Positions 9,558 to 12,026 of a stretch of DNA of 64,000 nt are shown here, one piece after another. Below the pieces are notes generated by a model. It made no database searches. It saw only the letters and a list, made by a program, of their open reading frames with translations, and was not told where the DNA came from. How positions within the stretch are numbered: the first letter of the stretch is position 1; the number at the start of each line of letters is the position of its first letter. This stretch comes from Acidimicrobiia bacterium (GTDB taxonomy: Bacteria > Actinomycetota > Acidimicrobiia > IMCC26256 > JAMXLJ01): the NCBI GenBank assembly GCA_024281095.1, contig JAMXLJ010000138.1, positions 1-64,000 of the forward strand, in the 5' to 3' direction. The position numbers were made by a program, and so were the translations under genes.

Positions 9558-9563
9558 TACGCT
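9558..9563 (+). promoter_or_regulatory. -10 box before DNA methyltransferase
   Basis: TACGCT ends six bases before the GTG at 9570, the same geometry as other leaderless starts in this window. It supports the GTG as the first codon and an independent promoter for the cassette. Confidence 0.45.
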
Positions 9564-9569
9564 CGGCGG

Positions 9570-11006
9570 GTGGTGCGATCGGGAGCGGGCGCGGAAGGTG
9601 CGCGGAAGCGTCGTGGGCCGGCGCGGCGCCCCACCGCCACCTCGAATTTCGGCGTCGGCCGGCGCGAGAGCCACGACGCGTCGATGTTCTACGAGCGTTT
9701 CGAGCCGCCGGAGCTCAGTTCCGACGCGGCCGTAGCGGAGCGGTACGAACTCGCCGATCCGTTCCAGGTTGGGGACGCGCGCAACATGGAGGTCGTACGC
9801 GACAACTCGGTCGCGCTCGTCGTTACGTCACCGCCGTATTTTGCGGGGAAGCAGTACGAACAAGAGCTCGAACGCGAGGGCATCCCGAGCTCCTATCGCG
9901 AATACCTGCAGCTGTTGACTGACGTGTTCGCAGAGTGCAAGCGCACTCTCGAACCGGGTGGTCGCATCGCGGTGAACGTGGCCAATCTGGGGCGCAAGCC
10001 GTACCGGAGTCTCTCGGCCGACGTGATTGCAATCCTCCAGGACGAACTGCGACTGCTCGTTCGCGGTGAGGTGATCTGGCGGAAGGGCGAGGGGGCAACC
10101 GGCAACTGCGCGTGGGGCTCGTACCGCAGCCCCGCCAACCCGGTGCTGCGCGACGTGACCGAGCGCATTGTGATCGCGAGCAAGGGCCGCTTCGACCGTG
10201 CGCTGGCGGGCCCGGAACGTCGCCGCGTCGGGCTCCCGCACCAACCCGATCTCGACGCCGACGAGTTCATGGCCGCGACGCTCGACGTGTGGGACATCGC
10301 GCCCGAGAGTGCGCGCCGCGTGCAACATCCCGCGCCGTTCCCCGTCGAGCTGCCTGAACGGCTGATTCGCCTCTACACGTATCGCGACGACCTCGTACTC
10401 GATCCGTTCATGGGCTCCGGGTCCGCGCTCGTCGCCGCGGCCCGGCTCGGGCGTCGGTACGTCGGCTACGACCTCGATCCGCAGTACGCCCGAATCGCCC
10501 GTGGGCGCGTGGAGAGCGAGGGCGGCGAGGAGCCGGCGACGCCGGGTTACGCGCCGGCGACGGCAGTGGCAGAAGAGCTTGTCAGCCAGGCCGGATTCGA
10601 CGTGGTCGGCCGGGCCAAGCGTCTCGCGGGCACCGGCGTTGCGGTGAGCATCGTCGCCAATGACGCCGACGGCGTGGCGTGGTATTTCGACGTCAGCGGA
10701 GCCTTCACGGTGAACCGGGGCGGGTTGTTCCGAACCGAAGCCGTGTTCCGCGCAATCGGACGCGCGCACGTGCTCGCCCAAAAGCAGTACCGCCCGTTCG
10801 TGCTGCTGACGACGGACGTCCCACGCCGCGCCAGCGAAGCCGACCGAGCGCTGCGCGCGGGTGCGGGGGCTTGTTTCGACGTGGTCGACCTCCGCTCCGA
10901 CGATGCCGTGCAGCGCCTGCGCGTGTACGCGAAGGGCAATCACACGACGCGCCCCGCCGCCGGGTTCTGGTCGCAGCAGGAGCTCGACGGCGCGTTTCCT
11001 TCCTAG
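9570..11006 (+). CDS. DNA methyltransferase with degenerate PD-(D/E)XK-like C-terminal domain
   Basis: 478 residues. Catalytic motif IV is TSPPYF (about residue 86) and the SAM loop DPFMGSGSALVAA (about residue 277) comes after it, the beta-class order; SPPY favours N4-cytosine or N6-adenine methylation. After about residue 330 comes an extra domain: helix AEELVSQAGFDVVGRAKRL, then VAVSIVANDADGVAWYFDVSG and PFVLLTTDVP, which looks like a PD-(D/E)XK core where the usual lysine is replaced by serine (FDVSG). GTG 9570 fits the -10 box; ATG 9684 is the alternative. It probably modifies chromosomal DNA and may guard against the nuclease-like neighbour 15 bases downstream. Confidence 0.85.
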   Translation: MVRSGAGAEGARKRRGPARRPTATSNFGVGRRESHDASMFYERFEPPELSSDAAVAERYELADPFQVGDARNMEVVRDNSVALVVTSPPYFAGKQYEQELEREGIPSSYREYLQLLTDVFAECKRTLEPGGRIAVNVANLGRKPYRSLSADVIAILQDELRLLVRGEVIWRKGEGATGNCAWGSYRSPANPVLRDVTERIVIASKGRFDRALAGPERRRVGLPHQPDLDADEFMAATLDVWDIAPESARRVQHPAPFPVELPERLIRLYTYRDDLVLDPFMGSGSALVAAARLGRRYVGYDLDPQYARIARGRVESEGGEEPATPGYAPATAVAEELVSQAGFDVVGRAKRLAGTGVAVSIVANDADGVAWYFDVSGAFTVNRGGLFRTEAVFRAIGRAHVLAQKQYRPFVLLTTDVPRRASEADRALRAGAGACFDVVDLRSDDAVQRLRVYAKGNHTTRPAAGFWSQQELDGAFPS

Positions 11007-11021
11007 CGGCACCGAGCGACG

Positions 11022-12026
11022 TTGGCCGATCTCCGCACCACGATCACAGAGGTCGTCACCGGCCTCGGGATGACGGGCTTGGACGACATCGACGACGCGC
11101 TTGCCGCGCGGCCGCGTTCGCTCGTCGACGTCAGCCCGGAGCTCTGGGACCAGCTGGGGGAGGGTTGGTCGCGACCGTCGCAGAGACAGGCGTTCGTCGC
11201 GGCGTGGACCAATGGGAGACGCTTCCTCGAGGCGCGTGATGGTCTGCGCGGTCGCGAGCCGCTGATCATCGAATGGAAGGGCTCACATCGTGCGCCGGGT
11301 GACGAAGTTGTCCCTGCGGATCTCCGGGTCGATCACGTCTATCTGGTGAGCTGCAAGTACCTGTCGCAGATCGTCATCAACGCGTCGCCGGCTCACTTGT
11401 TTGAACGGCTGCTCGCGGGTGGGCACGGAACCCGTGGCAGCGACTGGTACCAGCAGATCGCGCCGGCCGAGTATCAAGCGCTGTACGACGCAACGCGCGA
11501 CGAGTTGCGAGCCGGCGCGCTGCCCGGGCTCGTCGCCGATCTCGGGTCGGGCGATCGGACGCTCCTCCGGAAGGCGTTGCGCCGCACGTGGCCCCCGACG
11601 TTGGAAGGAACGTACGCGGCGTTCGTCGACGCGGTGGCCCGGGGATCGGCCCGCGTCTGGAGTGCTGCCCTTGACCGCACGCGCGATCGCGAACGGATGC
11701 TGTGGCGTCTCCTTCGCATCGGGAGCGCGCCGTACTTCGTGCTCGGCAGCTCGCCTCGCGGGTCGCTGCGGCTGCGGATCGCCACCCCGTGGGACTGGCG
11801 TCAGCAGTTCGAGTTGCGCACCTTCGAGGTGGAGGCGCGCCCCGGTGGGCAGCCGATGGTCGGGTGGCGGGCTGTTGTCCGCCGGCGAGCAGACCGCGAC
11901 GACGTGACGGTCGACGGGCGGGTCGAGGTGCGTTGGAGCCACGGCCGTTTCGGCGGCCCGCCGGAGGCGAAGGTGTATCTCCACACGCCGCACGCCGACG
12001 TTCCGGGCTATTTCCCCCTTTCGTAG
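11022..12026 (+). CDS. Putative restriction endonuclease, PD-(D/E)XK-like
   Basis: 334 residues, TTG start 15 bases after the methyltransferase, same strand and base use. Near residues 80-115 it has LIIEWKGSHR, DLRVDHVYLVSCKYLS, then a helix with HLFERLL: an acidic residue followed by a D...SxK strand pair, as in PD-(D/E)XK nucleases. The C-terminal half is rich in beta strands (LRLRIATPWDWRQQFELRTFEVEARP, RVEVRWSHGRFGGPPEAKVYLHT) and may bind DNA. The next-door methyltransferase makes a restriction enzyme the most natural reading. No family was recognised, so the function is inferred; a regulator or immunity factor is possible. Confidence 0.6.
   Translation: MADLRTTITEVVTGLGMTGLDDIDDALAARPRSLVDVSPELWDQLGEGWSRPSQRQAFVAAWTNGRRFLEARDGLRGREPLIIEWKGSHRAPGDEVVPADLRVDHVYLVSCKYLSQIVINASPAHLFERLLAGGHGTRGSDWYQQIAPAEYQALYDATRDELRAGALPGLVADLGSGDRTLLRKALRRTWPPTLEGTYAAFVDAVARGSARVWSAALDRTRDRERMLWRLLRIGSAPYFVLGSSPRGSLRLRIATPWDWRQQFELRTFEVEARPGGQPMVGWRAVVRRRADRDDVTVDGRVEVRWSHGRFGGPPEAKVYLHTPHADVPGYFPLS

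Follow-up and report, generated by a model that had tools for sequence, protein, structure and literature searches.

We propose that two adjacent genes in a 64,000-nucleotide stretch of DNA (the window), which comes from a genome of 4.39 Mb in 177 contigs, derive from a type II restriction-modification (RM) system: the methyltransferase has become a core gene and carries a pseudo-nuclease tail, and the endonuclease has been gained and lost. We put the probability of this reading at about two in three. We favor it because the methyltransferase is widespread, its tail is a burnt-out nuclease, and a separate nuclease is present in about a sixth of genomes.

If so, the modification half of an RM-derived system would now be a core gene in the class. 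The methyltransferase would methylate a short motif, probably at cytosine N4, and thereby protect the chromosome, and the 334-amino-acid protein encoded downstream would cut unmethylated copies of the same motif on incoming DNA. The tail would descend from a small PD-(D/E)XK nuclease similar to a free-standing 140-amino-acid paralogue (see below), which would have been fused to the methyltransferase, probably once, and would then have lost its catalytic residues. It would now be a non-catalytic module for DNA binding or dimerization and probably helps the methyltransferase to hold DNA. The cutting half (either the 334- or the 140-amino-acid nuclease) would have been lost and regained repeatedly, leaving orphan methyltransferases behind, and the product of a third gene (~107 amino acids), often present, is probably a helper or regulator of the nuclease.

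The two genes are genuine, with dozens of homologues for each at 40-80% identity and with open reading frames, and the motifs named in the first-pass annotation are present (Table 1). The cassette was given as starting at 9558, which is 12 bases 5' of the annotated GTG of the methyltransferase; this is immaterial. The methyltransferase was also correctly assigned to the beta class, as motif IV (TSPPY, from 9825) precedes motif I (DPFMGSG, from 10401) and the protein matches PF01555 (E = 1.9e-38). The Pfam match is limited to residues 81-310, so about 160 residues have no Pfam assignment. The best PADLOC model is MTase_II, a type II methyltransferase (4e-77), and the closest solved chains are 2zie (a putative modification methylase) and the cytosine-N4 methyltransferases 8s9m and 8s9n. 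The SPPY motif, together with these nearest solved N4C enzymes, suggests cytosine N4 as the target. A metaepigenome study that included an Acidimicrobiia bin (BS4) detected no motif or methyltransferase in it (PMC6329791), and our further literature searches for published methylation motifs from the class were empty.

Table 1. Coordinates of the two genes, their motifs, and related genes at other loci.
Feature	Position	Strand	Basis or remark
Beta-class N4/N6 amino-methyltransferase with pseudo-nuclease tail, 478 amino acids	9570-11006	+	GTG start; reading of the ORF
Methyltransferase catalytic domain (search query and basis of the tree)	9624-10523	+	60-80% identical in most of the class
TSPPY, catalytic motif IV	9825-9839	+	read directly from the sequence
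DPFMGSG, SAM-binding motif I	10401-10421	+	read directly from the sequence
C-terminal tail, PD-(D/E)XK fold, catalytically dead	10524-11003	+	AF2 and Foldseek
FDVSG, remnant of (D/E)xK	10686-10700	+	lysine missing in aligned tails
Putative restriction endonuclease, 334 amino acids	11022-12026	+	TTG start; REase_II matches; AF2
EWKG	11271-11282	+	read in the 334-amino-acid gene
D...SCKY	11319-11360	+	read in the 334-amino-acid gene
N-terminal candidate active site, E84, P98-x-D100, S110-x-K112	11271-11360	+	residue conservation, model
C-terminal hairpin ExRxSHG...PExK (E302-K317), second candidate site	11925-11972	+	conservation, REase_II region, model
Free-standing ~140-amino-acid proteins	L071:4484-4903, L072:4751-5170, L073:3980-4414, L085:1472-1888, L086:289-801		beside the methyltransferase; GVEIDxV...FEYKG intact
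~107-amino-acid protein, AYAVVxxDPPxVYLAED...	L049:2941-3276 and ~33 similar loci

The tail of the methyltransferase has a PD-(D/E)XK fold, as had been guessed from its sequence. In a profile scan we found no Pfam family for it, and two members weakly match UPF0102, which is a PD-(D/E)XK family. An AF2 model built on a 47-row alignment (pLDDT 90) has as its best PDB match in Foldseek the mismatch endonuclease EndoMS (5gke, 3e-4), and other matches include a Pyrococcus EndoMS homologue (2vld), XisH proteins (2inb), SfsA, and the restriction enzymes EcoO109I and EcoT38I. The matched chains 5gke, 2vld, 2inb, 4dap and 1wtd are all PD-(D/E)XK proteins. The tail belongs to this group by fold only, and it is a dead domain: the lysine of (D/E)xK is found in none of 41 fused tails (it is replaced mostly by S, A, C, G or T), the glutamate has become mainly aspartate, and the upstream aspartate is retained in 9 of the 41. 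Conserved basic residues of the tail family (R68, R73, K/R79 and R/K83, in the numbering of the protein from L071) would be suited to DNA binding.

The likely origin of such tails is visible in five genomes, where a separate 140-amino-acid homologue of the tail adjoins the methyltransferase and retains GVEIDxV...VWFEYKG. All five of these proteins have the catalytic aspartate and an intact (D/E)xK. The claim that the tail had lost its lysine (FDVSG) is therefore not only right but general. A profile of the five proteins matches fused tails in other genomes (E down to 1e-22). We predict that the free-standing protein is a previously undescribed small PD-(D/E)XK nuclease that is paralogous to the dead tail. 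The five genomes all lack the 334-amino-acid nuclease, so the two proteins look like alternative partners of the methyltransferase.

The downstream 334-amino-acid protein belongs to a tight family (homologues at 35-64% identity). HMM scans of Pfam, NCBIfam, PHROGs and PDB sequences gave nothing useful for it, so on present sequence libraries it would be a putative endonuclease family that is undescribed in Pfam and NCBIfam. It had been described as an active-looking nuclease with EWKG and D...SCKY elements. The second element held up: across 34 homologues, D100 and K112 (PADL...SCK) are invariant and E84 is nearly so. The first did not: relatives carry E, R, S or T where EWKG has its lysine, and EWKG is therefore not the (D/E)xK motif. 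A stronger candidate for an N-terminal site is D100...S110-x-K112, where the AF2 model (pLDDT 93) has a helix followed by strands. Invariant residues of the family form two clusters (N64-G65, W85, G87, P98, D100, K112, S115, N120 and P123; and E302, R304, S306, H307, G308, P314, E315 and K317). The motifs, the order of secondary structure elements and D100/K112 make a PD-(D/E)XK fold plausible, but Foldseek did not confirm it, as no PDB chain matched the model at E ≤ 0.001. The annotation of the neighbor as nuclease-like and linked to the methyltransferase is otherwise borne out, with linkage in many genomes and with matches to PADLOC's REase_II model (PDLC03456) in 31 of 34 family members. 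These matches are weak (best 2.3e-5) and, where shown, cover ~25-40 residues at the C-terminal hairpin; this short match and the lack of a relative of solved structure count against the RM reading. We found no true members of PDLC03456 among the relatives, the phylum sample or 14 control genomes.

Among viral models, the best structural neighbors of the 334-amino-acid protein are uncharacterized proteins from marine phage (E = 1.8e-7) and cyanophage (E = 7e-7), the latter being A0A0E3I1W5, a hypothetical protein of Synechococcus phage ACG-2014c. S-MbCM6_168, a hypothetical protein from Synechococcus phage S-MbCM6 (L234:41442-43076), is probably in the same cyanophage family. It has an invariant D...SLKK...PTLxN and a C-terminal ExRY.G..P; it is a candidate phage nuclease and may share the fold. 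A profile-profile comparison of the 334-amino-acid family with the cyanophage family was not significant, so we treat this kinship as a lead only. We also considered a phage or plasmid origin for the cassette and rejected it: phage and plasmid records contained no homologue of the nuclease and no near-full-length methyltransferase, and the methyltransferase cores found there are only ~30-36% identical.

The methyltransferase's catalytic domain is present in 238 of 296 genomes sampled from the class, apparently Acidimicrobiia (80%, at E ≤ 1e-50). In a sample of the phylum, most occurrences are in this class and the others in a few additional families, many again with long frames. The tail is found in 122 of the 296 genomes (E ≤ 1e-3), or about half of those with the methyltransferase; most of the remaining methyltransferases have no tail and end at the catalytic domain (~312-330 amino acids). 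The 334-amino-acid nuclease is present in 48 genomes (16%), all of which have the methyltransferase, as compared to 190 of the 248 genomes without the nuclease (Fisher test, 1.4e-5, ignoring phylogeny). Shared ancestry exaggerates this co-occurrence, as does the presence of the methyltransferase in 80% of genomes. Co-occurrence of the two genes had been put forward as a check on the pairing, and it holds in one direction only: every genome with the nuclease has the methyltransferase, but 190 of the 238 genomes with the methyltransferase lack the nuclease. Because the nuclease needs the methyltransferase and not the reverse, this is the asymmetry expected of restriction-modification.

Linkage of the two genes is conserved but not obligatory. 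Besides the window, we found 65 distinct loci where they are linked, and distances between the linked methyltransferases correlate with distances between their nucleases (Mantel rho = 0.36, versus a maximum of 0.24 in 999 permutations). Among 84,980 species genomes scanned, the nuclease has 256 relatives, of which the 80 best are nearly all from Acidimicrobiia or unclassified Actinomycetota; the methyltransferase is nearby in 41 and not nearby in 34 that have enough upstream sequence. Such separation, at times with housekeeping genes beside the nuclease, is not usual in mobile RM systems and counts against our reading. In 24 of 25 further genomes with an unlinked nuclease, the methyltransferase is elsewhere in the genome (in the four that we rechecked, with its tail). 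GC and GC3 of the pair in the window are close to those of its surroundings, so there is no sign of recent acquisition. A search for an empty site in a genome from the same genus (G036) found the methyltransferase on one contig and the transporter gene that lies downstream on another.

Several loci depart from the simple arrangement. At L133, L147 and L180, both genes are found in metagenome-assembled genomes (MAGs) labeled as Armatimonadetes, Planctomycetota and Acidobacteria, which reflects either transfer or binning error. Frameshifted or stop-containing copies of one or the other nuclease lie beside an intact methyltransferase at L048, L058, G074:C107 and G072:C1:343900; these could reflect either degeneration of the cutting half or errors in the MAGs. 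At L034:6852-8123 (G004), a gene that by eye is recombinase-like and partial copies of the methyltransferase lie between the two genes, which suggests an insertion that split the cassette. At L032:6053-8642 (G236), the intervening sequence holds an additional, truncated tail copy together with a gene that by eye looks to be of HTH/ImmA-IrrE type.

In ~34 loci, a gene for a protein of ~107 amino acids, which has no match in Pfam, adjoins the methyltransferase, usually between it and the nuclease. It is absent from the window. We found this gene only with tail-bearing methyltransferases, and at 31 of 70 loci with a nuclease partner versus 3 of 42 without. For two of these three loci, the genome does have the nuclease at an unlinked position.

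The first-pass annotation suggested that the dead domain recognizes or recruits the neighboring enzyme, so that the pair would form one complex. Most genomes with the nuclease do have a tail-bearing methyltransferase, including the tested genomes where the nuclease is unlinked, and in the window the two genes are 15 bases apart on the + strand and are probably co-transcribed. However, the tail is kept, and is about equally conserved, in ~80 genomes that lack the nuclease. A tree of 93 methyltransferases (catalytic domain) requires about 3 changes for the tail and about 19 for the nuclease; 35 of the sampled methyltransferases have the tail without the nuclease, and four nuclease-bearing lineages have methyltransferases without a tail. 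Independent pairs gave no association of tail with nuclease (0.2 versus 0.1 of 8 pairs), with little power. At a given identity of the catalytic domain, the identity of the tail is similar with and without the nuclease, so constraint on the tail is better explained by the methyltransferase than by the neighbor. Because the tail persists without the nuclease and is missing from four methyltransferases that have it, the recruitment idea is unsupported, and we consider it quite improbable. We are just as doubtful that the 334-amino-acid protein is a DNA-binding or regulatory partner of the methyltransferase instead of a nuclease. The glutamate of its (D/E)xK is S or Q, and the failure to match a known family or a PDB fold despite a confident model would fit, but such a partner would not readily account for the invariant D100, K112 and ExRxSHG...PExK cluster, or for the REase_II matches.

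Alternatively, the genes might belong to a host circuit, in which old strands or sites carry the mark of a core methyltransferase and the nuclease, where there is one, acts in repair or in the control of replication, like MutH with Dam. The prevalence of the methyltransferase (mostly at 60-80% identity), the absence of both genes' close relatives from phage and plasmid records, the housekeeping-type genes that at times lie beside the unlinked nuclease in the loci we inspected, and the likeness of the tail to EndoMS are all consistent with this. But a nuclease that is in only 16% of genomes and was gained or lost about 19 times is a poor fit to a housekeeping role, the sole recognizable nuclease profile is that of a type II restriction enzyme, and the likeness to EndoMS is at the level of fold and concerns the dead domain. 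We therefore view a host circuit as unlikely. A more speculative idea, for which we have somewhat more sympathy but would still bet against, is that the nearly class-wide methyltransferase is an epigenetic hub: its tail would be the dead, domesticated remains of an ancient RM nuclease that now act as a sensor or clamp, the 334- and 140-amino-acid proteins would be optional, swappable effectors, and the small protein would be an adaptor.

If derivation from a type II RM system is correct, then the conversion of an RM system to a core methyltransferase can be traced here, as an active ancestor-like nuclease, a dead fused copy, and both nuclease-bearing and orphan states coexist in one class. It would also add a candidate endonuclease family from outside the standard protein libraries, and a probable class-wide methylation mark in bacteria that are abundant in the environment but poorly cultured.

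The tail shares its fold with EndoMS/NucS and XisH (Foldseek 3e-4 to 2e-2), but it lacks the catalytic lysine and usually the metal-binding aspartate, it is fused to a methyltransferase, and its sequence is unrelated at this level. EndoMS/NucS is a two-domain catalytic enzyme, and only its nuclease-like domain matches (TM ~0.44) the dead tail. CcrM and CamA are core orphan methyltransferases, and the methyltransferase described here is similar in being conserved and mostly vertical, with the nuclease missing in most lineages; unlike those two, it still has a nuclease partner in about a sixth of genomes. The closest comparison is with type II RM systems that have a beta-class amino-methyltransferase (PvuII-type N4C; MTase_II and REase_II in PADLOC), in which a stand-alone methyltransferase lies beside a nuclease gene. 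Here, the methyltransferase has a dead PD-(D/E)XK tail and is near-universal in the class, and the nuclease is often unlinked and is from a family not described in Pfam or NCBIfam; but as in type II RM systems, the nuclease depends on the methyltransferase, and many of the methyltransferases are orphans.
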